Below, one piece after another: positions 4,108 through 38,198 of a DNA stretch of 64,000 nt. The notes under the pieces are model-generated. The model saw only the letters and a list, made by a program, of their open reading frames with translations, was not told the DNA's origin and did not search any database. The first letter of the stretch is position 1; each line of letters opens with the position of its first letter. This stretch comes from Isoetes taiwanensis (lineage: Eukaryota; Streptophyta; Lycopodiopsida; Isoetales; Isoetaceae): the NCBI GenBank assembly GCA_021234155.1, contig JAJEKV010000009.1:12282546-12346545 (forward strand), given 5' to 3'. Made by a program: the position numbers and the translations under genes.

Positions 4108-4438
4108 CGATGAAAGGGAAAAGGGAAAAAAGGAAAAGGGGAAGGGAAAAGGAAAAGGAAAAGTGAGAGAGGAAGGACAAAAGGGAAAAGGGAAAAGGAG
4201 AAATAAGAATATGAAAAAATAAAAAATGGAAAAGGAAAAATAGAAAACAAAAAAGGGGAAGAAGGAAAAGGAACAAAAAAGGGTAAGGAAGGGGAAAACA
4301 AAAAGAGAAGGAGAAAAGGGAAAAGGGGAAGATAAAATGACCGATGGCCAAAATTCACTCAATCCGATAGTTAAAAAGGGAAATAGGAAAAGGAAAAAGG
4401 AAAAGGGTAAGGGAAAAAAGGAAGATGGAAATAAAGAT
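4108..4438 (+). repeat. Purine-only array, left piece, ending in AAGAT
   Basis: Nearly every base on the plus strand is A or G, in GGGAAAAGG-type runs with occasional C/T punctuation. Positions 4,165-4,433 are repeated almost exactly at 4,971-5,248. The array stops at AAGAT (4,434-4,438), and a retrotransposon LTR end follows directly. In the uninterrupted copy, AAGAT (5,254-5,258) simply continues into more array. Long phenylalanine/serine/leucine-rich frames on the minus strand are composition artefacts. Confidence 0.85.
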
Positions 4439-4915
4439 TGTGACGTCCCCTACTCGTATACGATGCCCGCACCATATACAAACAGGAGTTCATCCTCCGC
4501 ACCAGCTCCACACTGATACAGGGCCCTCCACATATCACTGTGACCCCTCGAGTCCACAAAGTGGGAAGAGGAAGGGGTCATTTTAACCGCCTCCCTCGGG
4601 GCCTACCTAGGCTGGAGGCGTAAACATACACGCCGGAACATAACATCATATATCCACCTCGAAGGGTGGCACATCAACATCTGCATAGACAAAGATCGGC
4701 AAATACAAGGAAGTTCCTACCCAAGGCTTAGACTCGAGGGGATGATCGACAAGCTTGGGTCTCCGTGAGTTCTTGCATGCGAATCATGACAATGGATTGG
4801 GGCGGCATAAGAACATGGCTTAGGGTTGTCCACTCCATCCGCCCCTCACGGTACACACTTTGCGAGTAGGTTGAAAAGTGTTGGGACCCGATGTAGCCAC
4901 TTCTGGTGCATAGCC
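4439..4915 (-). mobile_element. Ty3/gypsy LTR fragment (outer end of a 3' LTR)
   Basis: The sequence from TGTGACGTCCCC onward aligns throughout with the beginning of the complete LTR at 35,506-35,900 (same 'gcccgca', 'ccctcgagtccac', 'aacataacatcatatatccacc' and 'gttgaaaagtgttggga' blocks in the same order). It starts exactly at the AAGAT boundary, so its left edge is a true LTR terminus. It breaks off at about 4,915 into purine array. Orientation matches a minus-strand element whose 3' LTR lies on the left. It is probably the partner of the LTR at 35,506-36,919. Confidence 0.8.
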
Positions 4916-6542
4916 AAAGAAAAGGAAAAGGAAAAGGGGAAGGGAAAAGGAGAGAAGGAAAAGTAAAAGTGAGAGAGGAAGGACAAAAGGGAAAAGGGAA
5001 AAGGGAAAAGGGAAAAGGAGAAATAAGAATATGAAAAAATAAAAAATGGAAAAGGAAAAATAGAAAACAAAAAAGGGGAAGAAGGAAAAGGAACAAAAAA
5101 GGGTAAGGAAGGGGAAAACAAAAAGAGAAGGAGAAAAGGGAAAAGGGGAAGATAAAATGACCGATGGCCAAAATTCACTCAATCCGATAGTTAAAAAGGG
5201 AAATAGGAAAAGGAAAAAGGAAAAGGGTAAGGGAAAAAAGGAAGAGGGAAATAAAGATAAAGGGAAACAAAAACAAGAAAAAAAATGGAAAAGGAAAGAG
5301 GGAAAAGGAAAAAAAGAAGGAAAGAAGGAAAAAGGTAAAAAGGGTAAAAAAGAAAAAAGAATTTCCAATCGTGAAAAGAAGTAAAGGAAAAAAAAAATAA
5401 AAACTAGGAAGGACGAAAAAGGAATTAGAAAGGATGAAAAAGGAAAGATGGGAAAAGGAAAGGCAAAGGAAACAGAAAAGGAGAGGTAAAAGGGCACCGA
5501 GAAAAGGGTAAGAAAGTAAGGTGGGAAAAGGAGAAAAAGTTAAGGGAAAATAAGAAAAGGTGGGAAGAAGGGGACAAACAAAGCGCATGGGAAAAGTGAA
5601 ATGGAAAGGAAAAAGAAAAAGAGAGGGAGGAAAGGGCAAAAGAGAATCTGGGAAAAGGGCACGAGGAAAAGGGGAAAAGGGAAAGGGCGGAAAAAAAGCG
5701 GAAGAGAGAAAAAAGGTGAAGAAAGAGGAAAAAGGAAGCAAAAAGAGCACCTAGAAAAAGGGAGAGGAAAAAAAAGATGGAAAAGGTGGTGGAAAAGTAG
5801 AAGAGGCAAAGGGTAAGGAACAAGGAATGAGAAAAGGAGGAAGGGGAAAAGGGCACAGGACAAAAGGGAGAAGAAAAGGGTGAGTAAAAAAGGGGAAAAG
5901 AGCATGGGAAAGGGAAAAGTAACAAGAAAAAACAGGGAAAGGAGAAATTGGAAGGCAAAAAGGGGGAGGAGGATGGCGAAAGAAGGAAAAGAGGCACATA
6001 AAAAAAAAAAAAAAAAAGTTGAGAAAAAGGGAATAGAAAGAGGCATATGAAAGGGGAAAGGGAAAGGGATAAAAAAGGAAAAGGAAAGGGAAAAAAGGCA
6101 CGGGGAAAAGCGAAAGGGTGGGGAAAGGATGAAAAGGGAATGTAAAGTTGAAAGGACAAGGGAAGCAGAAAAGGGAATGTAAAGTTGAAAAGAGGCACGA
6201 GGAAAAGGGGAGAGGGAAATGGGAAAAGAGATGGAAAAAAGGGCACGTGATCAAGAGGAAGAGGGTGGGGAAAGGAAGAAAAAGGGCACATAAAAAGATG
6301 AGCAAAAGGGAAAAAACAAAGGGAAAAATAGAAAGAGCTGAGGAAAGATAAAAAAGAAAGGAAAAAAGCCCATCAAAAAAAAAGAGAAAGGGAAAAAGGG
6401 GAAGGGGAAAGGGAAGGTAAAGGGAGGGACAAGGAGATTAAAAAAAAGAAAAAAAGAGAGAATGAAAAAATGGTAGAATGAATAGGTTTTTGTCCGCACA
6501 GATTCCTAATTTATGCCCAGCAACGCTGGGCACCATTACTAG
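4916..6542 (+). mobile_element. Helitron with purine-only core (uninterrupted copy)
   Basis: About 1.55 kb of A/G-only sequence is followed by a classic Helitron 3' end. This is a 7-bp GC stem with a 3-nt loop (GCCCAGC at 6,515-6,521, GCTGGGC at 6,525-6,531), seven bases, then CTAG at 6,539-6,542 followed by T. The 5' end is not resolved. Positions 5,254-6,542 are duplicated at 36,920-38,198. The array is built from irregular units punctuated by GGCAC/GCATGG, so it is a degenerate minisatellite rather than a simple microsatellite. No Rep/helicase coding sequence is present; it is non-autonomous. Confidence 0.8.
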
Positions 6543-7614
6543 TAATCTATGATGATTTTACATACTGGTTAGCATGATCAGATACATGGTTTTAACCTAG
6601 TTTCAATCCTCCCAAGCTTTTTTTATTAGTTTGATGTTGTTTTTTTATACACTTGTTTCAATCCTTAAAGTCATTACGAACTTTGAGCATAATTTCTTAT
6701 ATTAACTAGTAATTCCAAGGATTATATCTATTTTTGCACTCCTTTTAGAGCATGATCCTTATTCGTAAAACTTAGGTTCTGTACATTGACTTGTCTACTG
6801 GTTGCATGGTGTGGTCTATGTTTTCTACCATTATATGTAGCATAGTTTTATGTCGGGCCAAGTGTATATTTGTACTTATAGTTGCCAATGCATTCTTTGT
6901 GGTATCCATAGAGTGCACATTTTGTATGAAAGAGGATTTTGGATTATTTTAAGTGTTTATCATGCATGACTTAGAGGTTCCCTTGCATAATTGGAGTGAT
7001 GAGGAGCTCTACAGGTATGGTGTAGATAATAACCCTTTTGCTACCAACATAAGATCCTTTTTTTAAACTCAAATAATATTCATACCCATTGTACCATCTA
7101 GCAAAGGCAATAGATGTTGAATCTTGAACTTCACCTAAGCAACAACTTAGAATAAAACATGCTTCACTTTCATGCATGAAAGTAGATTCTGAGAAATGCA
7201 AAAGCAATCTTGAATTCAAAGCATGATCCTAATTGCATATATTCACATTATATTAACTTCTAGTCGCCAATAAATCATATGAGCTCTATGAATAACAATT
7301 TTCCTTGCACTATTTCATTCGATCGATTGATAAGGACCTATATTTAGCTATAAGTATCAATGGTCATATGAGCACCAACGATTTTCTCATGAAATTGCTA
7401 GGTCAAATATGCATGAGCATTCATTCATTAAAGAAATTCAGCTAGATCAAAGATTCATGAACACGCGATCGTTGACCTTCAAGTCTAGAATCGCATCATA
7501 AATATATGACACCATTATTTTTTCAAACCGGGGAATGCAAGCCCTTCAATATAGTGGCGACAACTCACATGTTTTTTAAGCCATTTTAACATAGGTGGCC
7601 GCTAATAATGCCTC
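6543..7614. other. Non-coding A/T-rich DNA
   Basis: No supported gene. The sequence is rich in A/T runs and short broken frames. It begins exactly at the T that follows the Helitron 3' end, so it is the flank of that insertion. Confidence 0.5.
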
Positions 7615-12147: not shown

Positions 12148-12166
12148 TTTAGAAGATCGGCTACAA

Positions 12167-12430: not shown

Positions 12431-13170
12431 AATTCAATGGGAAAAAAATTTGAGCATCTTGGTCTTCTGTACTCTTCCATTTTATAAAATAAAATAAAAA
12501 TGCTCAAATGAACCATATGCTGAAATATACCAATTAATTAGAAGTTATCACAATTTAGAACCATGTAAAAAAATCATGAACCCTCAAATTTTATTACGCT
12601 AATACATGAAGGTTGAATACTATGGTCTCTTATCGTATTAGCAAACTTGCCACGTGAAAACGGTAAAGGGCTGATATCATGAAAAAAAAAAAAACACTAG
12701 TTTTTCACATTATCGTGGAAGCAAAATCATACTGGTATATCTAAGCCAAGCATAGTTTTATTGATAATTAGTCACTATAAAATACCATAATAATTATACG
12801 CTAAAATAACAAAGATGATTAATCGCTATAAAATATCATACTAATTCGCATAATGAAATTACAATGTCAATAAACCAAGAATAATAGATGTGATCAAATA
12901 TCATTCCGATAAACGTGATAAATTAAGTAGTAGCACATATCATATATTCAAGTTGTCATAAAAACTAGCTATAAATTATCATATTTCAATACCATGTGAA
13001 GAAACACTATTCGTATGTCATGTTACTAAACTGCATTGATGAACTATATGGTATAACTAGACATGATTTGTAAACTTTTTGGCCCACATACCGGTATTGA
13101 TTTTAGGAGTTGGTTTTTACTACGAAATCATTAGAAAAAGATCATACTAATTCAATTTTGGGGGCCTTGT

Positions 13171-13409
13171 GCCTTATGTAGGCTATCAGTTAGGTTTAGG
13201 GTTCCCATGACCCTTGGTCTACCTTTAATGGGTTAAAGGTCTAAAGGTGCGCGCATTGCTAAGTGTGCGCACCATTGCAAGTTGCCCCCTAGGGCGTCCT
13301 TGCTTGGGTACACGCGTCGGCATTACCGCGTCCGGGGCGGCGATATGTGGATTTTACAAGAAAGCATGATAATACGTCTTGAGACCGTATATCGTACTGG
13401 AATGTCACA
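13171..13409 (-). mobile_element. Chromovirus LTR fragment (inner end of a 3' LTR)
   Basis: This aligns with 36,668-36,919, the 5' end (minus strand) of the complete LTR. On the minus strand it begins TGTGACATTCC right after a polypurine tract. It is cut at 13,171 where sigma segment A1 begins, with a few bases of microhomology (GTGC) at the junction. With 4,439-4,915 it supplies both ends of a 3' LTR whose middle (about 0.75 kb) is missing. Confidence 0.75.
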
Positions 13410-13422
13410 TTCTCCCCACCTT
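13410..13422 (-). promoter_or_regulatory. Polypurine tract of chromovirus
   Basis: On the minus strand AAGGTGGGGAGAA lies directly before the LTR start TGTGACA, the usual position of the plus-strand primer for LTR retrotransposon DNA synthesis. A similar TCTCCCCACCTT occurs again at about 13,451-13,462, so the tract is partly duplicated. Confidence 0.75.
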
Positions 13423-14230
13423 GAATTGATGCTGTCCGCAGCATCTTGGGTCTCCCCACCTTGGGATCTTCTTAACCTGCAATCAACCTGATGCATACCA
13501 TACACTTATTATTATAGTTATATATTTCGTACGATTACCTCAAGGTAATATTTATAGAACATTATTATACTATTATTCAATTCAATAATTATCGCTTATG
13601 TCATTATAACAATAACTCCTAATGTTTCAGTCTATTATTATATATACAACTATTGCTCGAGGTACTCTTTATTCCTTGCAACACATTATAACAAAATTGT
13701 GTTTCAAGTCTTAAATGGTTCGACCTCGTGGCCCTCCGTGCGCTCTATTGGCTGCCAGTCAACACTACGCTAGTACCATAATTATTAATAAAATTTTGGT
13801 TATATGGTGACCACCCCACCTATCTACATGAATGCATGGCTAATCTCCCGGCGTAGGAAGATGATGCTTCTTCCATCGCGGCCGAGGATACAGTGTCCTA
13901 TCATGCCTATATGGCGCTCATGCCTACACCTTTAGTGGCCCCAACGTGGAGGATAGGGTCCTTCTCGTATATGGAGCGTGAAGGATAGAGTCCTCCCCGT
14001 AGGCGTTGGCTAGAGGTGCTTTCCCTATCAATGCATTTCTGAATGACCTCTTATCTCTCGAGGTCGTCTACTCGCGGGACAGTAGACTTTCAAAGCGGCA
14101 CCGCCGTCATGCCTACATTGGCATTACACCCGCCCTAGAGATCACCGTAGTAATCTCATCATCGGTAACAACGCATGCAACCCTTACCTCATAGGTTGCA
14201 TCGTGGATTATACTTAACTAGGCAAGCTAT
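13423..14230 (-). other. Chromovirus 3' untranslated region
   Basis: About 0.8 kb between the PPT and the end of the chromodomain frame, A/T-rich with no supported coding. Position and orientation fit the 3' UTR of the minus-strand element. Confidence 0.5.
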
Positions 14231-15640
14231 TAATCTACACAAATCGACATGCCCGAGCGATTTCTTCTGAGATGACCTTGCCGTCCCATTGCTCCATAAA
14301 AACGTAGGGTACTGTTTTCCGGATCTCTTTTAAAGTACCCATGTCGCGTCTTCCACCGGCAAGTGTTTCCACTTGACCAAGTATTGGAGGAACTCCGATC
14401 TCCTTGTTTTTCTTGAATGCTTTATCAAGAATTATCTGCGGAACTATTTCTAATCGCTGCTCTTACGTCATTTCCAACATTGTTGGAGTGTCGGGACTTC
14501 CTCTCGGGTTGGGAGTATGCTTCTTCAGCCGGACTCACGTGGAAGACTTTGTGGATCTTTTAAGTGTCTTTGGCAAGTCTAACTTATAGGATTGGTTACC
14601 CACTCTTTGGACTATTCGGAAGGGTCCAGCCCATCTTAGACAAGTTTCTTGCAATTTCGATCTTGGAGTTTTGCTGCTTTACCTTGATCTTGAGCCATAC
14701 ATCCTCTCCAACTTGGAATTCCACGACCGTCTCGATGTTTGTCGCCGATGCTCTTCGCCCGACTCCTTCTTGCTGCTAGAAGGTACCCTCGAACTTCTTC
14801 CACAAGCTGTTGCATGTCGCTCAACATTTGGGAGACTTCCACTTTTGACATGGGATTGTGCCAAGTGTGCGAGTTAGGCATTGGTAGCCGTGGTTGATCA
14901 TGAACGGCGACATTTGGGATGATTCCCGCTGGTGCTATTGTAGGCAAACTCCACCAAGTGAATAAATTCCTCCCACATACCTTGCTTGTTCCGGACATAG
15001 TTTGAACATGTCTTCCAATATTACTCGTTGATACGCTCCCGCTTTGTCCATCCCGATGCGGGATGATATGCCGTGCTCATGGATAGCTTCGTTCCAATCG
15101 TTGTGAAGAGATCCCGCCAAAAGGCACTCATGAACTTTGGATCTCGATTGGGAGATGATTTCCCTTGGCATGCCATGGAGTCGAAGATCTCTTTGGTGAA
15201 GAGCTTTCGCCGATCCATAGTCGTGTCCGTGGTCACGCATGCATGGCACAAAGTGGGGCCATTTTTTTTTGACAACTTGTCGACCCACGACCATCAAGGC
15301 ATCCTTGCCTCTTACCGTCCTTAGCGTCCTGTTATAAAGTCCATGCGCGGACGACCTCCCACTTAGCGTTTGGCACCGCTAATGGTTCCAATGCCCCCGG
15401 TATTCGGTTGTTACGCCTTTGTTTTGTCGGCATAGCTGACACTCCTTGATGTAGCGGGCTATCTCTGCTTCTTCATTCCCGGCCAATAGTAGCTGCTTTC
15501 GCGACTTTAAAGTATGTCTTCATGAATCTGCGTGGCCAGCTATTGGCTGTTGTGGGTGTCGTGGAGGATCAACTTTCTTACTCTAGATGATTCCGCCGCG
15601 CAACTTGTTCTTATGGTATAGGAGGTTACCTTCCTTCTTA
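14231..15640 (-). pseudogene. Chromovirus integrase and C-terminal chromodomain
   Basis: Read on the minus strand, the order is the H2C2-type zinc region (about 15,430-15,600), the integrase core with a D-R-G-S/P-K-F-M-S motif and YHPASG-x-T-x-R (about 15,000-15,290), a basic C-terminal part, and a chromodomain-like end whose best frame reads YLVKWKHLPVEDATW (about 14,340-14,390). Y-L-V-K-W-K and D-A-T-W are the chromodomain signature, so this is a chromovirus of Ty3/gypsy. Frames are broken every 100-300 bp. Integrase would insert the cDNA, and the chromodomain directs it to modified histone H3 in heterochromatin. No intact protein can be made from this copy as sequenced. Confidence 0.75.
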
Positions 15641-15779
15641 AAATTTTGAAGGCTTCCCTCTCCTTGTCGTTCTCGCTTCCTTGCACGGGCTTGCCCATAC
15701 TTCCTTGAAGTCGACATCTGTTGGCAAGGTTTCTTCTATCTTTTTCCGGTACGAAGAGCGTCCGAGATTGCGTTGCAGT

Positions 15780-16430
15780 GCACCCTCGTTGTCAGTGGAT
15801 GCCTTGAAAGTGCATCGGCTACCACATTAAGCTTCTCGGGCTTGTAGACTATCTCAAAGTCGTACTCCTCGAGAAACTCCATCCACCTCCGCTGCCTTAG
15901 ATTGAGATGTGGTTGCGTAAATACGTCTTGGAGGCCTGTGGTGATCGGTGTCGGTGAACGTCCCTCCTAAGAGGTAATGCCTCATTCTCAATGCTCGACA
16001 ACCCGCTAGCAACTCTTGGTCATCGCGTCGGTGCTTGGCGTCTCGGCGTCGTTCATCTTCCTTGAGTCGTACGCTATTACCCGCTCTTCTTGCATGAGCA
16101 CTGCACCTGTGGCTATCTTGCTTGCGTCCGTCGCCACTAACTTGTCCTTTTCCCGTCAGGCGAGGGTTAAAGGCGGGTTGTCAAAGCTTCCTTTAACAAT
16201 TCAAATGCTGCTTGGGCTTTCTTAAGCCAATGGTCTGCCCAATTTTTCACTTTTTCCGGTCGAAGTTAATCCTTTTTCCAGTTGTATGTCTTACTGCCCC
16301 ACTTGCCAAGATTACGGGTCTTGGTTTGGACTTTAGGGGTCTCAATTTCAACATTTCAACCATCCTCGGGGATGCGAAGTTATGGCTACTTCCGGAGTCT
16401 ATCAAGACTATGAAAGACTTGGTCTTTGCC
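15780..16430 (-). pseudogene. Chromovirus protease joined to RNase H; RT deleted
   Basis: On the minus strand, 16,376-16,430 encodes the aspartic protease motif LIDSGSSHNF. Only about 120 bp later, RNase H sequence begins (KNWADHWLKKAQAAFEL near 16,190-16,260). RNase H then continues to the [15 protein letters not shown] and NVVADALSR blocks (about 15,800-15,890). The roughly 1 kb that should encode reverse transcriptase between them is absent. This element therefore cannot reverse-transcribe its own RNA. The deletion is clean, with no foreign insert visible. Confidence 0.7.
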
Positions 16431-16858
16431 TTCCCTACTGTGGAGATTACCTTGCGTGACGTTAAAATACTATCTATCTATCTTATACTGGGTCTCTGTT
16501 TGTTACTCAGATCTATATCGGCGAGATGTGGCACTCACCACGAATGTATCCCATCGGCGTGCCTCCCTCGCCCTTCCCTCGTCTGACGGGAGTGTCCCAC
16601 CAGCCCAACTCTGCCCCGTGGCCCGGAGCTCATAACAAATGGGCGCTTCACGGATTCGATGGCGGCTGGAAACATCTAAAGCGAGTCGCTTCTATGCATT
16701 CTGCCTTTTTTCTCCTTGGGCATCGCTGTAAGAAGGACCGCACTACTTTAAGTAGTTGGAACCTTCCCGTTTGTCCTTGAAGGACACACTTTCTTTCTGC
16801 TTTGTTTCCCACGGTTCTTTGTTGTATGGGGACTTTCTTTGGACTTGGGGTTGCTGCC

Positions 16859-23791: not shown

Positions 23792-23891
23792 AAACTCTCA
23801 CATATACAATACTTTCAGTAAGGCTTCACCTCATGGCCTTAAGAAACTTAACTATTAAGTTCCTCCCCAGCCTCCCCCCTCATTTGATCTT

Positions 23892-26800
23892 ATGAGGATC
23901 TTAACTTTTGGTCGAGGGGCATCAAGGGCCCCACCAAAAGAAGGCGTTTTATTGCCACTTTGAGGGACTTTAAAAGGCGATATTATCATGATACAAGAAC
24001 ATAGGCTCCCCAAATTTGACTCTTAAATGCGGGTGAATGGATCCATACAGGATGGCCTCTTGCTATATCCCAGCTGATGGCACTAAAGGGGGGATTGCTA
24101 CCTTTTGGTACAATCAAAAACTAATTAGCACTTATATCAGTCCCTCTAACAGATGGCTTTGTGTGACTCTTCAAATTAAGGACTGTCAAGTTGCCTTCAT
24201 AAACATCTATGCTTCAACTGATCCCTATGAAAGAGAGCCTATGTGGCATGAAATCAACAATTGGATGAGCCAACACCAACAGGTAGAGAACTGGGTGGTG
24301 ACTGGAGACTTCAATAATACCCCACACAGTGATATGAAACTTGGCAACAAAATTAACATGTCCAAAAATGAGAGATATTCCTTGGACAACTGGATGACCA
24401 ATCAAGATCTGATCTATGTCCCATCTTCAAATACCAAATTCTCTTGGAGCAATAAGAGAAAGGGAGACCAAAGGACTTTTTGTATGCTGGACAGATTTTA
24501 TATCCATAACTCTGCTAATTGGCTAGACAACTGCATTGTTACTGGAGATATTGCTAGCACTATTTCTGATCACCAGCCTCATTTCCTTGATACCAAGGAT
24601 TTGATAGTTGGCCCAAGAAGCAAGAACACTCCCTTTAAGTTTAATACTTCTTTGCTTCAAATGAAATCCTTTTGCCAAGATTTCACAGCCTTTTATCTGT
24701 CATTGCCCAAAATTGGCCAATATCAATCAATGAAATGCTTCAATGACAAAATGAAGAAAGTCAAAATCTGGGTTAAGCAATGGGGTAAAGATCTTGCCCA
24801 AAAAGGAGAGCTATTATGTCCAAATTTTGTTGGAGCCCGGATCAAGAATATCGGATCGATCTTGAAAATAATCCTAAGGATGACTTTCTTCATATGAGAG
24901 AGGAACAATTGGAAATTCAGATCAAGACCCTTGAAGAACACCAGGTTAAGGGGATGGCCCTTAGAAGCAAAGTTAAAATGTACAACCAGTTGGACCAAGA
25001 GAGTTCTAAAATGTTCTTCAATTGCTAGAAATAAATTTGGTTAACAATTCAATCACTTTCGATTAGAATCGATCAAGGTTCCACTCTTCTGAGAAGAGAG
25101 AAGGAAATTTCCTCGGCTTTTCTCAATTTCTACACTAATCTTTTTTTTTTAGGAGTAGGAAATAGAGAACAACAAAATTCAGGATATCTTTGATATTATT
25201 GGCCCCCAATGAAGTGATGGATGATGGTTGACGTAGTCCCCGAACTCCCCGAGATCTTTGAAACTCTCAAAAAGATGAAGCATGGGAAAAGTCCTGGTAT
25301 TGATGGCTTTCAGCCTGAATTCTTTGTGGAATTATGGCCTATAATGAAGGAAGATATTATTCAATTTGTTCAAGGTGTTTGGAGAGCCAGGACTATTTAT
25401 CCCACATTCAATGTTGGAGTCATTTCACTTATCCCTGAGACTGAAGCTCCTTCCAAAACTAATGAATGGCGCCCTATCTCTTTGACCACCACCTTATACA
25501 AGCTGGTGGCTAAAATAATTGCTTGGTAGAATTGTGGTCCATCTCCATAGCAAGGTGAATGCTTGTCAATCACCTTCCTTCCTAGCGATCCATTCTAGAT
25601 AACTACATAGGCGCAAATGAGGCTCGCATTGGAGCAGTTGAGCAAGCGAATCTGTATCCTCCTCAAGTTGGACTTTAAAAGAGCCTATGACTGCATTTCA
25701 TGGAAATTCCTTAAGAAGGCTCTTGTCCACATAGGCATTCATCCTGCCCTTATTGAGCTAATAATGGGGTTAAACCAAAAAGCCACATCCTGTGTTATTG
25801 TCAATGGTACTCCCAACGGTTTTTCCCCATTCAAAGAGGGGTGAGGCAAGGTTGCCCCTAGCACCCTACCTCTTCATAATTGCGGTGAAATTCTTACCAA
25901 GATGGTCCTCTCTTATCAAGATAAGGGTGCGCTCCAAGGGCTTCAAATGCCTGATTCTAATAAGCGACTCTCGATCCTCCAATATCTTGATGATACCTTC
26001 ACTATGCTTTCGAGTGATAATAATAATTTGAGCAATTTTATGGATTGTATCTCCAAATTTAGTCTTTATACGGAATTCACACTGAATTATACCAAGTGTT
26101 CTATTCTAGCTGATGGCTCTTATCCCCGATCTCAACACTCATGGTATCAAGTTTGTCCCCAATGGGCAATATTTGACCCTCTTATGGCTCCCCCTTGCAA
26201 TGCATATGTCTCATAAGATTGCATGGCAGCCTCTCATTAATGTAGGATCGGGAAAAAGCTTCTCCTCCTTAAAGGTTCCTTGTCTCCATTTTGGGAGAAT
26301 CTTGATACCCAATTATTCATCCTTGCTAGCAGTCATGTTTACTTTTCTTCGCTTTGATTGCTGACAAAAGCCTCTTATAGTAAGATTGAGCGGTGTATTA
26401 AAAAGAATACATTTGGCAAGGTACTCATCTATCTGCCAGGACGGTGACTCATAGTAAAAAAGCGGGAGGATTGGGATGTAAGTCCTTGTTTCTTCAGGCC
26501 CAAGTTCTAGGGGCTAAAAATGTTTGAAACCCATCTCTGGTTTCCAATCTCCTACTATGGACTTTATCAGTTACGGCTTAATAAGAGCAAACCCTTAGGA
26601 AGCCCCTCTATTAAACATCGGCTCCCGTTTCCTTTTATAATTTTTCAATGTCACCAATACTTCCCCTCTTCTCGGAAGTATCTTTAAAGCACGGGAAAAG
26701 GTAGCTGCAATCTTTACTCATGACAAACTCTCAAATTACATGGGGATACTTCCATTTTCTGGTCACACAGATGGCCCCTTCCTCCTCCTAGCCATGGCTA

Positions 26801-29800
26801 TAAGTCATCCGACTGATACAAAAAAATGGCATTACTAATATTCTTTATGTCAGAGATCTTATTGATGATGAGGAAAACTGGATTCCTTGGGATGTGATTA
26901 AGAAGAAAGTGGGAGGGAGTGCTACCCACAGATCTATTTATAAGAAAGTTGTGCAGATTTATTCCCCCTTCTTAGGCAAAGATGGTAAAGGGGAAAGTCA
27001 TTCATCTCTGAACTGGTTCTTCAAAATCAAGAGGAGCTATAAAGTTTCTAAGATTTATCATGCATGTCTTCCTCAAAAAAGCAAAAAACATGCCTCTCTC
27101 CAAGGCCTTTCTCCCAAGAACTTTAAGAAAATTATTCAATCCAGTTGGAAATCCTATGCCTGCCCTAAGATTAAAGTTTTCTCTTGGCTCATCTTATATT
27201 ATAATGCTGTAGCGTAAGTATGTCATGAATGAAACCCTAATTTGGAAGATCATCCGATTGCATTCGGAGGTCGAGATTTATCGCACGACTTCCCTCCACC
27301 ATGATTGGCCATGCTCTAATGTTTAAAGAGGAAAGGGAAAAGGAAAAGGGAGGAGAAAATGGCAAAGTGAAAGGCAAAAAGGCACGGGTAAAAGGGAAAG
27401 AAAGAAAGGAAAAAAGGAAAAAAAGAGCAAAAAAAAAAGGGAAAGGAAAATAACAAAAAAAGGACACTATGAAAAGGAGAAGATGGAAAGGATGAGGATA
27501 GGAGTAAAAGGGAAGTTGAAAAGGGATGAGGGAAAAGGGTAGGGGAAAAGGAAAAGGGAAAAAGGAAAGAAAAAGGAAAAGGGAAAGGAAAAGGAAAAGG
27601 GAAAGGGAAAGGGAAAGGGAAAGGTAAAAGAAAAGGGGAGGAGGAGGGAGTGAAAAGAACACCTTTGGGAAAGGGGAAGAGTAAAAAGGTGGGGAAAGGA
27701 GGAAAAGGGGGGAGGAGATAAAGGCAAAGTGAAAGGCAAAAAAAGCCGCGGATAAAAGGGAAAAGGAAATGAAAATAGCACAAAAAGAAAGGAAAAGTAA
27801 GAGAAAATAAAAAAAAAAAATGACACTATGAAAAGGAGAAGAGGGAAAGGGTGAGGGACGGGGAGTAAAAGGGAAGGGAAAAAAGGGGATGAGAGGAAAA
27901 GGGAATAGAGAAGGGAATGGAAAAAGGAAAAGGGAAAAAGAAAGGAAAAATGGAAAGGGAAAAAGGGGGAGAGGAGGAGGGAGGCGAAAAGGGACATGTG
28001 GGAAAGGGGAGAGAAAAAAGGTGGGGAAAGGAGAAAAAAGGAAGGGAAAAAACCACACAAAAAAAAAAAAGAAAAAAAAAGGGAGGAGAGAAGGGATGGA
28101 AAGAATAAAAAGGAAAAAGGGCATGGGGAAAAGAGGAAGAGAAAAGAAGGAGAGAAGCGGAAAAAAGGAAGAGAAAGGAGGGAGGAAAGGGGAAAGGGAA
28201 AAAAAAGAACAAATGGGGAGGAAAGGGAAAAAAAAGGCTCAGGAAAAAGGGAAGAGGGAAATGGTGGGCAAAGGGAAGGAATAAATGGCCTTTGTAAAAG
28301 GGAAAGAGAAATAAAGGGAAGGGAAAAAAAACAAGGAGGTTGAAAATGGAAAAGGCAAGCGTAGAAAAAAGTGGAAGCAAATGGAAAAAGGCAAAAGGGG
28401 GAAAAAACGGGAGGTAAAATGGAAAAATAGAAAGGGTGAATAAAAAGGAAAAGCAAAATAGAAAAAGAAAAAGAAAAAAAGAAAAAAAGGAAAAAAAAGG
28501 AGGGAAGGAGGAAAAAGGTGAAAAAAGGGGAAAAGAGGAGAAAAAAAAGAGCATGAAAAAATAGAAGAGAAAAAGGGACATGGCAAAAAAAGGGAAGAGG
28601 GAAAAGGGTGAGGGAAAGGGGAAACCCCGAAGGAAAAATGGACGTGGAAAAAGGGGAAGGGAAAGAGGGAAAAAGAAAAAAAAAGGAGGGGAAAAGGAAG
28701 GGAAAAAGGCACTAGAAAAAAAAAAAGGAAGACTGAAGGGTTGGGCAAAAGAGGAAAAGGGAAGGAAAAAGGGGAAAAAAAAAAGGTGGGGGAGAAGGAA
28801 AGGGAAAAAGGGAAAAGGAAAAGGAAAGGGGAAAGCAAAAAGGAAAACTTAGAAAGAAGGGCCGCGAGGAAAAGGGGAAGATGGAAATGGGAAAAGAGGG
28901 GGGGGAAAGGGCACAAGGAAAGGGAAAAAGGGCAACCACAAATTGGAGAAAAGGGAAGGGAAAAATAGAAAAGGAAAAATGGGGAAGCAGAAACAAAAAA
29001 GAGAAAAAGAGGAAATGGAATAATGGAAAAAGAAAAAAGTAAATTCAAAAATGTAAAAAGGAAAAAGGGGCAAGGGAAATAGGAAAAAAAAAATAGTAGA
29101 CAAAGGCAAAATGAAAAAAGGAAGGCGGAAAAGATAAGGGAAGTCACGAAATGTGGTCGATATCTTGATTATCAATTTTAAAACAAGAATCCATTTAACA
29201 ATTGCTCCGATTATGTCATTCATGGTTCTAGCTATGCCCAAAAAACGCCAACTGCTGTTTTAGTTCTCCATAATGCTATTCTGAGCAATACTAACATGAT
29301 CAAGAGAAAGTTCAAGTCTGTTCATAGTGCTTTTTACTGCCTTCTGTAACACTCATGATGATGAGTCTTTACACATTTTCACTTGCCAAAGGATTCGGGA
29401 CTTTTGGAGATGGTTGACTCGACCGCTTTTTAAAATCCACGACCTTGATTACGTTTTCGATTTTCCCAATTCTTCCAGCTCCGAGAATTCCAATGTCAAT
29501 TGCACAATTTTACAATTAGCCACGTGGATAATCTGGAAACATAGAAATAATGTGGCTCGGCAAGCAGGGAAATGTGACCCCTTAACGGATGAAGCTTAAT
29601 TTTCAATTTGAACTTATCGGATGTGCCATGGCTCATAAGGCTCTAAAATTAGAAAAGTTTGACTTGGATTGGCTGAATTAGGGGATCCTTCAAGTCTAAC
29701 TTCTTTACTATTCATTTGGATTCTCTCATTGGCTTGAATGCCTTAAGTGGATTCTGAAACTTTCTTGAGCAGGTGTGGTCCAAAGTTTTTTAGGAGGACA

Positions 29801-30256
29801 ATTCTCCCGGATGATGTACCCACTCACCATTCGGGGACTCCTAGGCAGGCTGTAAGGGCTACTTTTCGGTTAAAATTCCTGCTCAAGGAAGCTTACAACG
29901 CTCATATCTTGCACAAGTTTATTGGAGCTCATGATCGTCTTCTCACAGAAAGACAATTTTCATGCTTAAGGTCCATGTATTATTATCACAAGGGTAGATG
30001 TGAAGCTGCAGCTGGTGTTTTGTTGGATATTATTCAGGTCCCTATTGATGAACTGTTGCTGTTGACCCCCTCCTGGGCTGAGATCAATTGGCTTGCCCCC
30101 CCTTGTTTTTCATTGAACCTTAATGCTACACACTCCTTCCCTGACCTCCCTGCCATTCCGGATTCATTACTGTACCTATCTCCATTGCCTATTCCTTCTG
30201 CTGTTACTCCAATTTCTCAAAATCCTGCTCCCTCTACCTCTGGTATATGGCTCTGA
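23892..30256 (+). pseudogene. LINE ORF2 (endonuclease and reverse transcriptase)
   Basis: From the ATG at 23,892 the order is: endonuclease N-terminus (DIIMIQEHRLP), endonuclease core with VVTGDFNNTP (about 24,292-24,325), and reverse transcriptase from 25,221 (GKSPGIDGFQPEFF, LDFKRAYDCISWKF). The catalytic LQYLDDTF lies near 25,979-26,005. A C-terminal zinc-finger-like part follows, with DDESLHIFTC near 29,350-29,390 and a tail to 30,256. RT would copy element RNA at a nick made by the endonuclease. Several stops and indels break the frame. The Helitron at 27,192 interrupts the codon after FSWL; joining its flanks restores the frame. Confidence 0.85.
27192..29263 (+). mobile_element. Helitron with purine-only core, inside the LINE
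   Basis: It starts with TCTTATATTATAATGC (27,192) after an A and ends with TTAG (29,260-29,263) before a T, as expected for Helitron insertion between A and T without target duplication. Before the end lies a decayed form of the family hairpin (GCCCAAAAAACGCC). Removing the 2,072 bp joins 'ctca' to 'ttctcc' and restores the LINE reading frame, which fixes both boundaries. The interior (about 27,325-29,130) is almost purely A/G on the plus strand. There are no Rep/helicase genes. Confidence 0.92.
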
Positions 30257-30430
30257 AGGTGATCATCAGATCAGACAGTTTATATTTTGTGCCAAATGGC
30301 TGATTGGATCTACTGCTACTATATTACTGTTTTAATTTTTTCTGTTATGGGCTCTGAGCCTTATTTTGTATGTTTTTAATTTATGAGTAATATAATCCTT
30401 CCTTTTCCTCAAAAAAAAAAAAATAATAAT

Positions 30431-30445
30431 AAATTGTTACTTTAC
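30431..30445 (+). repeat. Right target-site duplication of LINE
   Basis: Exact copy of 21,260-21,274 immediately after the poly(A)-like tail. The next bases (a 'tttgctgtcaaattgttact' block) partly repeat the same A/T-rich host sequence. Confidence 0.95.
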
Positions 30446-30781
30446 ATTTGCTGTCAAATTGTTACTTTGCATTTGTTTTCAAATTGTAAAAGGTTGATCA
30501 GCTGCAGCAGACACCCAAAGACTTGATTGTTATTTCGTGTCTTGAAAATTTCATTGCAGACATTTCTGCAAACATGCTCAACTGATTGTATTTGAATCTT
30601 TATCTTTCCCATTCAATGAAAAGGCATCACATACACTGAAATAGGAAAGAGTCAGCTGCCTAACAAATACTCTGCATTTTGAGCAGAACAAAACACAAAA
30701 TATGATTTAGTGCTCCACAGTTAACAAGCACTCTGCTTTGAATGAATCAACCTGCACCAGTTTCTGCACCAGGGAAAGGGA
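30446..30781. other. Non-coding flank
   Basis: No gene seen. This is host-side sequence right of the LINE and, on the minus strand, the 3' flank of the frame at 30,782-31,228. Confidence 0.45.
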
Positions 30782-31228
30782 CTACCTGAAACCACCATTA
30801 ATGGTTTCAAAGCTTTTGCATATTCCAGTTAAAATATAGTCCCTTCTAACTATAGTCCCTTCTGGAAGCTGTTCACCAGCTCTGGATATGACCTCCTCCC
30901 TATCATTTGAATCATAATTTTGGCATATCTTATTTACAAAATCCACAATCAGCTTAGCATCTTTTTGTTTTTTTCTAGTAGAAGGTTTTTCCTTGTCTTT
31001 GCCATCGTCTTCTCCTACCATCATAATTTCTAATTGCCTCTTCCTCTTCTTGGCTCTCTGTATTCTCCTTCTAGCAGTCAAGATTCTCCGACATGCAGTA
31101 TTAGGGGATACACAATTGCAAAGCTTACCACATTTTTCCAAACATGGTTCTATATTTTCAGAATTCTTGTTAAGAGGAACTGGAGAAGACAATACCTCAG
31201 GCAAATTTGGTTCCATGGTGTCTGCCAT
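30782..31228 (-). CDS. Intact 148-aa basic protein frame, unknown
   Basis: The frame starts MADTMEPNLPEV and ends KSFETINGGFR with a stop. It contains a cysteine cluster (CLEKCGKLCNCVSPNTAC) followed by a very basic stretch (ARRRIQRAKKRKRQLE) and a Lys/Glu-rich linker (KEKPSTRKKQKDAK), so a nuclear, nucleic-acid-binding role is plausible. Upstream, the frame continues without stop through an Asn/Glu repeat (SAKEDTNENEDRNENENE), and an AG acceptor lies near 31,290. More exons may therefore exist towards 31,500, and the true start may be further upstream. It is one of the few undamaged frames in the window. I do not recognise the family. Confidence 0.5.
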   Translation of the reverse strand: MADTMEPNLPEVLSSPVPLNKNSENIEPCLEKCGKLCNCVSPNTACRRILTARRRIQRAKKRKRQLEIMMVGEDDGKDKEKPSTRKKQKDAKLIVDFVNKICQNYDSNDREEVISRAGEQLPEGTIVRRDYILTGICKSFETINGGFR

Positions 31229-31799
31229 CTCATTTTCATTTTCATTCCTGTCTTCATTTTCATTGGTATCTTCCTTCGCACTTCAAATCTTGCAAGAGAT
31301 TCAAAGAATGTTAATTCCCAAGGATCTTGCAATGTCCTCCGGATCTTCATTTCCAAATCGTCTTTTGCGCAAATTCAGCAAAGATATTGAGCAAACAAAT
31401 CCATGACATACCAAACAATTGCATGAAGCGGAGAGACAAAACACAAAAAATCAAACCACAATTCCATTTTCAAAATTCTATTCTCGGCTGCTGCAATCCA
31501 AAACTAGCGGGAGCGGGAGAAAGCGAATCCTCCTACTTCCGGATTGATGACATGGCACAACAAACTTCTAATTACGAGGTCCGAAGACCTAACCCGTCAA
31601 ACCAAACCGTCACTTGAGTGTTCTTAGCGGGCCCAAAAAATTTGGAAAATGGCTAAAGCACCCTAAAGCACTATGTGTGCCGACAAGGAAATGTCCCCAC
31701 CTATAAGCTTTCACCCCATAGTCATCAACCTCTCAGTAGTCTCATTCTTTGAAGCTCTCACGGTCGAACTTCGCCTCTTCTCTCCCGGGAGGTGTTGCC
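31229..31799. other. Upstream region of the 148-aa frame
   Basis: Contains possible additional minus-strand exon sequence (31,290-31,400) and non-coding DNA. No repeat was recognised. It joins the 3' end of the second tandem unit. Confidence 0.35.
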
Positions 31800-33084: not shown

Positions 33085-33350
33085 GGTCTCCGCGACTAGC
33101 GCCTCGTCAAAAACTAAACTTTAGTTTCTTGACCAGGCGGCGTGTGAGACATCAGTCCCATTTTGATCAAAACATGTCCAATTTAGGTAAAATAAGGGTG
33201 TAAGGATGATGGACTCATCAAATCAGGTAGAATTGACCCCTTATTTGGTCAATTTGGAGCTGTTTTGGGCAAGTTTGGGCGAGGTCTCACAGCTAGCGCC
33301 TCGTCCAAAAACTAAACTTTAGTTTCTTGACCAGGCGCGACCTGTGAGAC
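33085..33350. repeat. Two long palindromes upstream of the second unit
   Basis: Palindromes lie at 33,085-33,150 and 33,283-33,350. In the second, arms of about 34 nt pair almost perfectly around AAACTAAA/CTTTAGTTT with virtually no loop. Each arm carries GTCTCACAG, then GCGCCT, then a TCAAAAACTAAA-type block. Spacing between centres is about 198 bp. They lie 190-460 bp upstream of the TATA box at 32,889 and just downstream of the H3-like stop codon. They could form cruciforms in DNA or hairpins in RNA. Confidence 0.85.
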
Positions 33351-33495
33351 ATCACACCTTTCGGTCTGCAAATGTCCTATTTCACTAAAACAAAAACTAA
33401 AACCTGCTAACTTGTCCTAATTAAACAAGTTCAGACAATTAAAGTATCCAAAATTGTTCTATATTACAAAAAATTTTTGGCTATTTACAAAATGT

Positions 33496-34832
33496 TTAAT
33501 GGCGTTGTCCCTTAATGCGACTAGCAAGATACATGTCTTGCCTCATAAGGGTTACCCGCTTTGCATGAACAGTGCAAGCTGTTGAGTCTTCAAAATGTTG
33601 CACTATCTTCTGCTCAGCCGCTTCTTGCAGTGCCAGCAGCATCTCATATGTGACCCTCATGTCGGTCTTGAAATCCTGCATTACTTCTCTAACTAGCCGA
33701 GCAAAGGGGGCACGGGGGAATCGGGAGGCGTAGCTGCTTGGCTGAAGTGCGAATCTCCGTAGTGCTCTTTGCTCGAAATGCTTCCCCGGTGAGCTTCTTC
33801 CCAAGCGGGCTTTTTCGGGACCTTGGGCTTTGGTGGTGGCGGCCTTAGGGTCTGCTGCTTTATTGGGTGTCCCCCTTCGATGGTCCTGACCCTGTTCTCC
33901 TGGTAGTAGGAGTTGTAAGCCTCCCACTCCTTCATATAGGCCTCGTGCTCCCTCATATTTCTCTCATAGATTTTGATGGGGTTAAGTGACATAAGACTCG
34001 AGGCCCGGTCGGGGTTGCTTTTCCGGTCCCACTTGGATAAGGAGGGGCTTACGCACTTGATCCTGGCTTGCTCCAGTCGGGTTGCTCACGGTTGGATCTT
34101 GGTTTCTCCTGGCACAGGGGTTTTGAAGAACTCCCACCCTTGGGGTTGGGGATGTAATCCCCGTCCCGGAGGAGTCACGGGAGGAGTTAGGTGGCTGATC
34201 GAGGCGGCTCGGAGATCCGACCCCTTAGGGTTGGGCTTCCTTACCTTAGGGACTTCCTTGAGCTTCCTTGGGCTCCCCACCCATTTCCCTTTCTTACGCC
34301 CGGTTCCTCTGCCGCTTTAGCCTCCTCCTCTGCCTCTTCCTCTTCTTTTGTTCTCTTTTCCTTTCTGGCGTTCATACTTTGCGATAAGCGGCGTGAGGTC
34401 CGCTTCCTCCGCCCGGCTCAAGCCTCGGCTCGCTCTATCTTGCTGCTCCTCCGCTTCTTTCTCGAATCCGGGCTTGAGTTGCTCTTCAGAATGGTGGGCT
34501 CGGAGTTCGGTAGTCCTCGCTCCTCCACGAGCCTTGGTCCTTTGTTCTCCATTGTGCTCCCTCATCTTCTTCTTCAATTATCTCCGTTCACGCCGGGTGC
34601 ACCTCTTCTTCTCGGTCGACCTGCCCGGTCTCCCCGTCATTGCTTTGCTCTCTTTTGGGATCCTTCACTATTGTCTTGCGATTGAGGGTTCTCCCTCACT
34701 TTCGAGAAGATTGACCCGTTGGTCAAGAAGAAGGCCTGAAGCATCGCGCCCGAATCGTCTTCCCCGGAATCAAAGGCGGCTGGTGATTACGCTGGGAGGA
34801 GCTTTCCTCATGATTTGCTTGGTCCGTGCCAT
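33496..34832 (-). CDS. Histone H3-like protein with very long N-terminal tail
   Basis: The start codon at 34,832 gives MARTKQIMRKAPPS; canonical H3 begins MARTKQTARKS, so Lys4, Arg8 and Lys9 are kept and Ser10 is Ala. The C-terminus (about 33,730-33,499) is a clear H3 histone fold: APFARLVREVMQDFKTDMR, LLALQEAAEQKIVQHFED, then HAKRVTLMRQDMYLASRIK and GQRH before the stop. Loop 1 (QDFKTD) has canonical length, unlike the longer loop of CENH3. An alternative frame just upstream supplies ALREIR of the alpha-N helix, so a frameshift lies near 33,770. Between tail start and fold are some 330 residues, Lys/Arg/Glu/Pro-rich (KKPAWEE, YERNMREHEAYMKEWEAY, GRGRGG), against about 30 in normal H3. No intron is seen. 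At least four frameshifts are present, some at CAG/CTG sites. Confidence 0.75.
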
Positions 34833-35044: not shown

Positions 35045-35301
35045 GGTCTCAGGGTAGCGTCTGCTTCAAAAACTAAAGTTTAGTTTTTTAGACCAGCGCG
35101 AGTATGAGATCTTATTTTTTAAGTAATTTATGTAATTTAAACATGCTATTCCAACTAATTCCTACCTTGGAACTAGCCTTACCATATTACTTTTCTCAAA
35201 TTCATCAAGTTTAGTGTGTTCTTGGTTTGATGTCTCACCGGTAGCGCCCTGCTCAAAAACTAAAGTGCGGTTCTTTGACCAGCGCGCGGTGTGGAGACAT
35301 C
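35045..35301. repeat. Two long palindromes upstream of the H3-like gene
   Basis: Palindromes lie at 35,045-35,111 and 35,229-35,301, with the same core (CAAAAACTAAA...TTTAGTTTTT) and GTCTCA/TGAGA outer arms as the pair at 33,085-33,350. Centres are about 187 bp apart. Compared with the other pair they are offset by 1,948-1,959 bp, close to the TATA-to-TATA distance of 2,045 bp, so the palindromes were duplicated together with the gene. Confidence 0.85.
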
Positions 35302-35490
35302 CTACTGAAGGAGGTTTTGGCTCATTCTTTTTTAGTCTTATTAAGTTCCAATTCACCTAATCGTTACTAGCTTAGCATAAACTACAAAAATGAGAAAAAC
35401 TTTCCCACTTTTCGAGGCTTGAGGATCCTATCAAGTTAGTACTCATCGGGAGCATTGGTGATTGCTTTGCTCTTGGTCTCCAAGAACATG

Positions 35491-35504
35491 GCTCTACGAT
35501 ACCA
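35491..35504 (-). promoter_or_regulatory. tRNA-Met primer binding site
   Basis: The minus strand reads TGGTATCGTAGAGC one base after the LTR end (...GACGTCACA, A, TGGTATC). This is the initiator-Met primer site TGGTATCAGAGC with CAG replaced by CGTAG, the same replacement pattern seen at CAG triplets elsewhere in the window. Confidence 0.8.
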
Positions 35505-35505
35505 T

Positions 35506-36919
35506 TGTGACGTCCCCTACACAAATTATCACGATGCCCGCAGGTATGCAAGCGAGAGTTCATCCCGCACCCGCTCCACAGCGATCTGAGGGCCCTCCAC
35601 ATATCACCGTGACCCCTCGAGTCCACGATTGGGGAAGAGTGAAGGGGTCATTTTACCCGTCTCCCTCAGGGCCTACCCTAGGCTGGGAAGCGTAAACATA
35701 CATCGATAACATAACATCATATATCCACCTCGGCGGGTGGCACATCAACTTATCTGCATGGACAAAGATCGGCAATACAAGGGAAGTTCCTACCCAAGGC
35801 TTAGACTCGACTCCGATGGCCGACAAGCTTAGGTCTCGAGTTGATCTGTGAGCATTTAAAGTAGGTTGAAAAGTGTTGGGACCTTTGTAGCGGGTGCATA
35901 AAAGGGGGCTATTCCCGGGTTACATCTCCCGATTCCCGATGGGGGCGGTAGGGATCATTCCCTCGAGATCTTCATGCTGACCCAAAGGTGACTAGAGGGC
36001 CACGCCCTTATTCGACTTAACCCACCTGGAATGTGTACACCACCCCACGGTGTCGAGCCCATGCCTTGCCCGCACTCGGTGGCAAGCCATTAGACCTAGT
36101 CACTCACGATCCCCGTAGACTTTACGCCCGGATCGGTCAAGGGTCGAGAACACGAACCTCCTTCTAAGCCCCGGCCCCTTCACCCACAACAACTGGGCTC
36201 AGACACAGGCGAATCTAGTAATGCACTAAGAGGGACTAGCTAGGAGCATCATCTACTAAGCTTTAAGTCTCTACCCCCTTCCCAATACAATGAGTCCACG
36301 TAATACATCCATCCATCATATGAACATAAATAATAAGAAACTAATCTAATACATAGAGTTAGGTTCTTTAGTTAGAGTCAATCTCGGGATCCGCAGCAAC
36401 TAAGGGCGATTTAATAGGGCTAAACCCTCCGCTGGAAAATGGAATGAGGTTTAGGCTATTCAATCGACCAAATACTCCTGATCCATGGTTCACTCCTCTT
36501 GATCCGGAAGGCATCCATGTCATTACGCTTGAAATGTGGAAATGGAAGGACGATCCGACAAAATTTGGAAACGCCGCAGGCGAATCGTGGGAGTTAAATT
36601 GACTCCTCGCCAGCTGAATCCCGGAGTTGAAAGGTCGGCGTGGGGCGAAAAAAGGGAATGTTAGGGTTTGGTGCCTTATGTAGGCTGCTCCGGTTAGGTT
36701 TAGGGTTCCCATGACCCTTGGTCTACCTTTAATGGGTTAAAGGTCTAAAGGTGCGCGCATTGCTAAGTGTGCGCACCATTGCAAGTCGCCCCCTAGGGCA
36801 TCCTTGCTTGGTACCGCGTCGGCGTATCGCCGGTAGTGGCGATGTCAGTGGATTGGCCGTTAAAGATGCGGGTATACTTTTGAGACCGTGATATAAAATG
36901 ACTGAAACGGGCGATCACA
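35506..36919 (-). mobile_element. Complete 5' LTR of a minus-strand chromovirus
   Basis: On the minus strand it begins TGTGATCGCCC (36,919) and ends GGGGACGTCACA (35,506): 1,414 bp with TG...CA ends, followed by a primer site. Its inner end matches 4,439-4,915 and its outer end matches 13,171-13,409. Outside it, AAGAT (36,920-36,924) continues into purine array, the same pentamer that precedes the LTR end at 4,439. A minus-strand frame at 36,368-36,712 appears to be a chance frame within the LTR. Confidence 0.85.
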
Positions 36920-38198
36920 AAGATAAAGGGAAACAAAAACAAGAAAAAAAAATGGAAAAGGAAAAATAGAAAAGGAAAGAGGGAAAAGGAAAAAAAGAAG
37001 GAAAGAAGGAAAAAGGTAAAAAGGGTAAAAGTGAAAAAGAAATGAAGTGAAAAGAAGTAAAGGAAAAAAAATAAAAACTAGGAAGGACGAAAAAGGAATT
37101 AGAAAGGATGAAAAAGGAAAGATGGGAAAAGGAAAGGCAAAGGAAATAGAAAAGGGGACAGAAAAGGAGAGGTAAAAGGGCACCGACAAAAGGGTCAGAA
37201 AGTAAGGTGGGAAAAGGAGAAAAAGTTAAGGGAAAATAAGAAAAGGTGGAAGAAGGGGACAAACAAAGCGCATGGGAAAAGTGAAATGGAAAGGAAAAAG
37301 AAAAAGAGAGGGAGGAAAGGGCAAAAGAGAATCTGGGAAAAGGGGCCCTCGGAAAAGGGGGGAAAAGGAAAAGGCGTGGAAAAAAACGGGAAGAGAGAAA
37401 GGGTGAAGAAAGAGGAAAAGGGAAGCAAAAAAGAGCATCTAGAAAAGGGAGAGGAAAAAGATGGAAAAGGTAGAAAAGTAGAAGAGGCAAAGGGTAAGGA
37501 ACAAGGAAATGTAAAAGGAGGAAGGGGAAAAGGGGTCTGGACAAAGGGAGGAAGAAAAGGGTGAGTAAAGGGGAAAAGAAAGGGAAAAAAAAGAGCATGG
37601 GAAAGGAAAAGTAACAAGAAAAACAGAAAGGAGAAATTGGAAAGGCAAAAGGGGAGGAGGATGGGGGAAAAGAAGGAAAAGAGGCACATAAAAAGTTGAG
37701 AAAAGGAAAGAGGCATATGAAAAGGGAAAGGGAAAGGGATAAAGGGAAAGGAAAGGGAAAAAAGCACCCGGGAAAGCGAAAGGGTGGGGAAAGGATGAAA
37801 AGGAATGTAAAGTTGAAAGGACAAGGAAGAAGGAAAGGGAATGTAAAGTTGAAAAAGGGGCACGAGGAAAAGGAGAGGGAAATGGGAAAAGAGATGGAAA
37901 AAATGGCACGTGATCAAGAGGAAGAGGGTGGGAAGAAAGGAAGAAAAAGGCACACATAAAAGATGAGCAAAAGGGGAAAAACAAAGGGAAAAATAGAAAG
38001 AGCCGAGGAAAGATAAAAAGAAAGAAAAAAGCCCATCAAAAAAAAAAAAGAAAAAGAAGGGAAGGGAAAAGGAAGGTAAAGGAGGGACAAGGGGATTAAA
38101 AAAAGAAAAAAAGAGAGAATGAAAAATGGTAGAATGAATAGGTTTTGTCCGCACACGATTCTAATTTATGCTCAAAGAACGCCGGGCACCATTACTAG
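36920..38198 (+). mobile_element. Right half of a purine-core Helitron
   Basis: This is collinear with 5,254-6,542. It begins at the AAGAT duplication that bounds the LTR and ends with the Helitron 3' sequence ATTACTAG at 38,191-38,198. The terminal hairpin is damaged (GCTCAAAGAACGCCGGGC instead of GCCCAGCAACGCTGGGC), the changes falling on the CAG and CTG triplets. Together with 4,108-4,438 it makes one Helitron copy interrupted by the chromovirus. Confidence 0.8.

Follow-up and report, generated by a model that had tools for sequence, protein, structure and literature searches.

This report concerns a 64,000-nt stretch of the Isoetes taiwanensis genome (contig JAJEKV010000009.1, positions 12,282,546 to 12,346,545, forward strand), hereafter the window, and a minus-strand long terminal repeat (LTR) retrotransposon within it that carries a histone H3-like gene between its primer site and gag. 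An initial annotation had placed the outer LTR ends at 4,439 and 36,919, each flanked by AAGAT, in a purine array whose unoccupied form is unbroken at 5,254-5,258, and these coordinates hold. The sole run of N in the window (62863-62962) lies beyond the element. In the order in which the element is read, its features and those lodged within it are as follows.

36920..36924, no strand: target-site duplication AAGAT, right copy, abutting the outer LTR end
35506..36919, minus: 5' LTR, 1.41 kb, the initial ~90 bp of which differ from the LTR start of other copies
35488..35505, minus: primer site TGGTATC-GT-AGAGCC, of the initiator methionine tRNA (iMet) type; TGGTATCAGAG(C) in other copies
35220..35308, minus: palindrome P1
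35038..35118, minus: palindrome P2
34934..34942, minus: TATA-like TATAAATAG, 5' of the H3-like gene (motif only)
33499..34832, minus: broken H3-like gene, with MARTKQ tail at 34832, charged spacer and H3 fold at ~33739-33499, interrupted between tail and fold by stops and one or more frame breaks
33276..33358, minus: palindrome P3
33078..33160, minus: palindrome P4
31731..32960, minus: unit 2, a second leader open reading frame (ORF), decayed; without a Pfam match, found in other copies
18371..31730, no strand: sequence read as a later insert foreign to the element (a long interspersed nuclear element (LINE), purine array and 148-aa frame); edges to ~100 bp or more
17850..18370, minus: pre-gag region, a third leader ORF in another copy
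16500..17850, minus: gag, decayed
16260..16500, minus: protease, with the reverse transcriptase (RT) core deleted behind it (frameshift-tolerant alignment)
15740..16260, minus: RNase H, decayed (frameshift-tolerant alignment)
14600..15740, minus: integrase, decayed
14307..14441, minus: chromodomain, decayed; its relative in a fuller copy (L056) matches PF00385 (E 7e-10)
13410..13426, minus: polypurine tract AAGGTGGGGAGAA and surroundings
13169..13409, minus: 3' LTR, start piece
4919..6560, plus: purine target array, second copy, with no insertion at AAGAT 5254-5258
4439..4918, minus: 3' LTR, end piece
4434..4438, no strand: target-site duplication AAGAT, left copy, abutting the outer LTR end

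The C-terminal piece of the H3-like gene (33499-33963, minus) matches Pfam Histone with an E of 2.9e-21, and all 60 matches listed for its fold in the PDB are H3. A six-frame translation of the whole window contains MARTK a single time, within this unit, at 34832 on the minus strand. Based on the Pfam match, the position of MARTK and the genome search described below, chance similarity to H3 was rejected. When the protein database was queried with a 424-residue reading of the gene, the 120 matches listed covered just 15-18 % of the query, namely the histone fold; the database was also queried with a 155-aa frame. Among the further domains that had been claimed, protease, RNase H, integrase and chromodomain gave frameshift-tolerant scores of 76, 101, 138 and 95, all above the maxima from ten shuffles (51, 59, 51 and 39), the chromodomain being scored against a consensus entered by hand. 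Since the H3-like gene has stops and a frame break and the RT core is missing (protease ends at 16277 and RNase H begins at 16260), the window copy is dead.

The histone-bearing family across the genome

Searches were made in the window's own assembly (1.66 Gb, 1110 contigs). A 601-bp piece of the LTR gave 4809 first-look candidates, the best 40 of which were scored (84-100 % identity), and the H3-like frame gave 9313, of which the best 150 were scored; all 150 matched with E<2e-37, and long open frames are common among them. A third query, consisting of the LTR end and leader with the H3 gene excluded, gave 3049 candidates, the best 40 of which were scored, and 39 of these are 5' ends besides the window's. 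The candidate totals are unscored, may contain host H3 genes and are not to be taken as copy numbers. Among the matches listed, 19 of the 40 LTR matches (the window's own counted) have an H3 match at element spacing. The same 40 LTR matches form seven distinct same-strand pairs 10-24 kb apart, every one of which encloses an H3 match on the element strand, as well as an eighth pair that has its 5' LTR in common with one of the seven. Besides the window's, 27 of 29 H3 loci match the element leader directly after the primer site, and 25 of the 39 5' ends carry the gene; in 15 of the 39 a listed H3 match lies 1.2-2.3 kb inside, and in ten of the 24 others, from which 1-kb stretches were fetched, the fold was found, frequently decayed. 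The H3-like gene is a family trait, with a constant place and orientation inside LTR pairs. The initial annotation had proposed that a chromodomain retrotransposon gained a histone-like gene between primer site and gag, and had pointed to other LTR pairs enclosing the gene as the check; the recurrence across the genome supports the proposal, and the check came out as seven of seven pairs, with clear 5-bp duplications in two (AAGGC and CGAAT) and an unclear one in C1074. A solo LTR is flanked by AAATT.

Members without the gene also exist. Where the H3 gene would be expected, it is lacking from 14 of the 39 5' ends; 11 of these have a single alternative sequence in common, two show other element pieces and one shows neither. 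The 11, which keep the same LTR end and leader, are L064, L067, L068, L070, L074, L077-L080, L084 and L086. In the one copy that was followed (C905; L078, L088 and L089), what follows leader and palindromes is unrelated, up to the 3' end of the element, and gag-pol was not found except for an 82-bp piece, because of which the shared form is read as a non-autonomous derivative.

Two fuller copies were fetched, each spanning ~13-15 kb. The first (C907:52803000-52817300; L055 and L056) contains, in order, LTR, primer site, palindromes, H3 gene, palindromes, unit 2, pre-gag, gag, protease, RT, RNase H, integrase, chromodomain and LTR, with the Pfam domains RVP_2, RVT_1 (9e-40), RT_RNaseH, rve, SH3_Tf2-1 and then PF00385 (7e-10) following one another in L056. 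Its two ends, LTR plus leader, are 93.8 % identical, and because another leader comes after the second, the element stands in tandem. The second copy (C930:9289600-9304800; L057 and L058) has the same order through integrase, then unrelated sequence and then a second LTR. Four more LTR pairs are 89.3, 91.8, 94.8 and 95.7 % identical. In L002 and L004 the primer site next to the LTR end reads TGGTATCAGAGC, with one change in other copies. The family has chromovirus features, namely TG..CA LTRs, 4-5-bp duplications, the order protease, RT, RNase H, integrase, a chromodomain at the integrase C-terminus and an iMet primer site. These features, together with the position of gag ahead of protease, are those of plant chromoviruses (clades CRM, Tekay, Reina and Galadriel); unlike them, the element has a long leader, extra ORFs of which the first is H3-like, and palindrome pairs. 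The palindromes, of ~70 nt and up to four per copy, stand in pairs ahead of the leader ORFs (window 33078-35308; L010-L018, L055 and L058). Those that a pattern picked out number 42 and have a mean hairpin energy of -42 kcal/mol, vs -20 for 128 random 90-mers (lowest -52); in 14 of 32 loci, for the most part copies of greater divergence, the pattern picked out none.

The two leader units of the window copy are alike in paired palindromes, TATA-like box and leader, and had been annotated as two tandem units, with histone-like genes spoken of in the plural. The first is H3-like, as claimed, and the second is not clearly a histone: its scores of 49 for H2A (maximum of six shuffles, 41) and 46 for H3 (maximum 40) were not accepted as evidence of one, and against H4, H2B and CENH3 it scored at or under the shuffle maxima. 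No relatives were found in three scans of viral contigs, and Rfam at gathering scores gave 0 matches.

The H3-like protein, its conservation and its origin

Sixteen stretches were fetched, comprising all 15 listed stop-free frames of at least 440 aa and one 445-aa frame with a stop. Twelve are full from an in-frame MA(R/Q)TK to the stop (419-451 aa); the remaining four are incomplete and were excluded from rate estimates. Each open frame begins as an H3-type tail, continues through a long charged spacer and closes with an H3 fold at the C-terminus. Eight of the 12 begin with MARTKQTARK, which, the initiator Met aside, equals residues 1-9 of canonical H3; three others retain the lysines at positions 4 and 9 and differ by a single change each, and the last begins with MAQTKQTARK. 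PF00125 was matched in the two open frames scanned (1.3e-28 and 1.5e-28), and the best 60 of 175 PDB matches to the fold are all H3. Pooled over the 66 pairs of the 12 frames, the ratio of non-synonymous to synonymous substitution rates (dN/dS) is 0.053 in the tail, 0.231 in the spacer and 0.083 in the fold, at mean dS of 0.93 (47 pairs with dS >0), 0.80 and 0.67, respectively; differences in the fold by codon position 1, 2 and 3 are 0.066, 0.047 and 0.285. Values of 0.05 and 0.08 in tail and fold indicate strong purifying selection, by which a protein was preserved.

Within trees built on 89 columns, the element folds form one clade that joins plant CENH3, not canonical H3, with support of 94/90 (30 rows), 94/89 (31 rows) and 96/94 (26 rows, four database matches dropped); in the 30-row and 31-row trees, human CENP-A is on the side of H3. 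The reference histones, except the database matches, were entered by hand. In addition to the tree grouping, the element fold and plant CENH3 have the words EIRHFQ, LLIP.APF and RVTLM in common. The element differs from plant CENH3 in its H3-like QDF(K/R)TD, its spacer of ~315-350 aa between tail and fold (derived from frame lengths) and its being encoded by a repeat. With canonical H3 and H3.3 it shares the MARTKQTARK tail of most open frames, but its fold is fused to long extra regions and, in the three copies compared, is 57-61 % identical to Arabidopsis H3.1/H3.3. A CENH3 origin for the fold of this lineage is favoured and not proven. Pulling the other way, the p-AU of 0.224 does not reject placement of the fold beside canonical H3, the extra loop-1 residue or residues of plant CENH3 are absent from the element fold in the alignment, and no clear host CENH3 was seen among the best 150 scored matches to a piece of rice CENH3. 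The best of those matches that were read belong to a second repeat lineage and others resemble canonical H3; matches of 79.6-79.7 bits on G000:C445, C97, C1025, C919, C105, C1109 and C1081, several with 139-aa frames, are probably host canonical H3 genes.

In the second lineage (L090-L093), three of the four loci read have frames of 475-515 aa, in which an H3.3-like C-terminal fold follows an unrelated N-terminal region of ~370 aa. This fold is identical to Arabidopsis H3.3 at 77 of 89 positions, and its dN/dS in three pairs is 0.023-0.046. In the sole copy followed (G000:C1043:5060795-5068400), the frame begins ~0.4 kb past the LTR-end-like GGGAGCGTCACA plus TGGTATCAGAGC, with 140 bp upstream matching the first-lineage LTR at 82 %, and it lies upstream of gag, protease and RT that have 48-53 % protein identity to the first lineage; this copy yielded no integrase, chromodomain or 3' LTR. 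Because the two folds occupy different parts of the tree, two separate histone acquisitions are suggested.

The window copy: insertion history and nested sequence

The homologous array at 4919-6560 continues uninterrupted through AAGAT, without the element. The left flank (4168-4438) and 4988-5258 have 98 % identity, the 50 bp preceding that flank being more divergent (86 % across the first 132 aligned), and the right flank from 36920 is 94-98 % identical to the sequence from 5254 for the first ~410 bp and 78-97 % beyond. Identity between the window's LTRs is uneven, at 94 % over 155 bp, 85 % over 339 bp and clearly less in the first ~90 bp. The 3' LTR is in two pieces, with ~0.77 kb missing as judged by eye, and also contains the second target-array copy and an A1 block. 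Where an LTR start was found in other copies, it mostly resembles that of the window's 3' LTR, the 5' LTR start being the outlier. Conversion or recombination after insertion is likely. The single insertion that had been annotated is likewise likely, and it falls short of proof because LTR identity is patchy. Inside the 3' LTR, 4919-13168 holds an array homologous to the element's own target site, with the A1 block, and a misjoin there is possible.

The element had also been called giant, but its 32.5 kb is largely nested later sequence. GC content is 0.48-0.51 and the CpG ratio 0.68-0.93 in the LTR, H3 gene, unit 2 and gag to integrase, whereas GC is 0.39-0.42 by segment in 18371-31730 (0.39 in 30435-31700; 0.36-0.44 in 400-bp bins over 18600-21000). 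One bin (18200-18599), at 0.55, is element-like despite lying partly inside the insert, and weighs against the split by composition. In both fuller copies unit 2 and pre-gag are only ~110 bp apart and the insert is absent. The difference in composition and those two copies are the reasons for reading the LINE, the 148-aa frame and their surroundings as a later insert. The annotation, too, had taken the LINE to be nested later; the 148-aa basic frame that it had counted as part of the element falls within the same insert. That frame (30785-31282, intact stop to stop, 166 aa, or 148 aa from its Met) was rejected as an element gene, its composition being foreign and no database relative appearing at E<=10 (eight candidates tested). 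A possible insert-flanking duplication (18672-18685 / 31631-31646) was dropped, as it contradicts the edges seen in other copies. Elsewhere in the window, kilobase-scale, strand-asymmetric purine arrays (AAAAGGG-like) occupy 4101-6500, 27301-29100 and 36901-39900, one of them within the LINE, and 40300-63600 holds a Copia element and two gypsy stretches that are 90 % identical, with a second A1-type block between them.

Possible roles and significance

Our reading, to which we give a probability of roughly 80 %, is that a high-copy chromodomain Ty3/gypsy family took up an H3-type gene from its host and has maintained it, placed between primer site and gag, the window holding a dead copy. Several points weigh against it. 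The gene is missing from the expected place at the 14 5' ends noted above, and at L004, an LTR match with leader, the H3 tail piece went unmatched in the short stretch available. The frames used for rate estimates were chosen for openness, which favours younger copies; that bias alone would not produce dN/dS so low. Finally, AlphaFold gave a poor model of the window frame (pLDDT 55), which was not used.

As to what the protein does, it would pair with H4 and enter nucleosomes or a histone-like complex. It may then mark chromatin, either on the DNA of the element or at the sites where it lands, which might be CENH3-like chromatin, or it may package or protect the element's own nucleic acid; marking or packaging would aid integration or escape from silencing. 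Marking of chromatin jointly with the integrase chromodomain appears the most likely of these. In PMC6317226 the partner of type II chromodomains is described as not yet identified. The boldest reading allowed, given a tail kept through K9 and an integrase with a chromodomain, is that this chromovirus group captured host H3-type histones at least twice (one CENH3-like, one H3.3-like) and writes its own nucleosomes, with the chromodomain or the kinetochore reading the mark, in a self-marking and possibly centromere-seeking loop; we consider this less likely than not.

Of the competing explanations, the one that fares best, although we consider it improbable, is that the H3-like protein is a structural protein of the virion, a gag accessory that condenses nucleic acid with a borrowed fold and never enters host nucleosomes. 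The spacer is long and charged, the gene lies upstream of gag, and binding of nucleic acid by tail and fold, or of H4 away from nucleosomes, is conceivable; however, conservation is highest in tail and fold and lowest in the spacer, which fits contact with chromatin proteins. Less probable still is a decoy that titrates histone-modifying silencers, such as H3K9 methyltransferases and chromodomain readers, off the element, as the near-canonical tails of the 12 open frames might suggest, since this leaves the conserved fold unexplained. That the gene merely hitchhikes, useless to its carrier, seems very unlikely: plant LTR elements reportedly transduce pieces of host genes (PMC7264820), but tail and fold here have dN/dS of 0.05-0.08 at mean dS of 0.67-0.93 across 12 frames, and more divergent copies that gave no match to the palindrome pattern still retain the gene. 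The chance presence of a host gene or pseudogene for an H3 variant beside or between retrotransposon pieces, which the strong rearrangement of the window copy, its patchy LTR identity and the second target array in its 3' LTR might have suggested, is refuted for practical purposes by the recurrence of the linkage in seven of seven LTR pairs, 27 of 29 H3 loci and 25 of 39 5' ends, unless the assembly is systematically wrong.

No report of a retrotransposon-encoded core histone was found in the literature searched, which largely excluded subscription papers. Giant viruses encode histone doublets and bracoviruses an H4; like the element, these viruses are mobile and encode a core-histone fold, but they are not retroelements. 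Plant LTR retrotransposons with additional ORFs are on record (PMC7264820) and, like the element, carry an extra ORF; in the main text of that paper, the word 'histone' occurs 0 times. The 25-kb Gypsy elements of Phalaenopsis (PMC9289625) have an AlkB-like demethylase ORF and are comparable as large Gypsy elements with an additional conserved domain, an RNA demethylase there and a histone here.

If our reading of the family is true, a very abundant family of mobile elements codes for a component of the chromosomes of its host, in a gene that selection has kept intact. With thousands of first-look candidates and a selected H3 variant, it would open direct tests of how elements choose or write chromatin, and would permit tests of chromodomain reading by plant retroelements and of genetic conflict over CENH3. 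In the genome of I. taiwanensis itself, histones encoded by the element may disturb histone gene counts and the annotation of CENH3.

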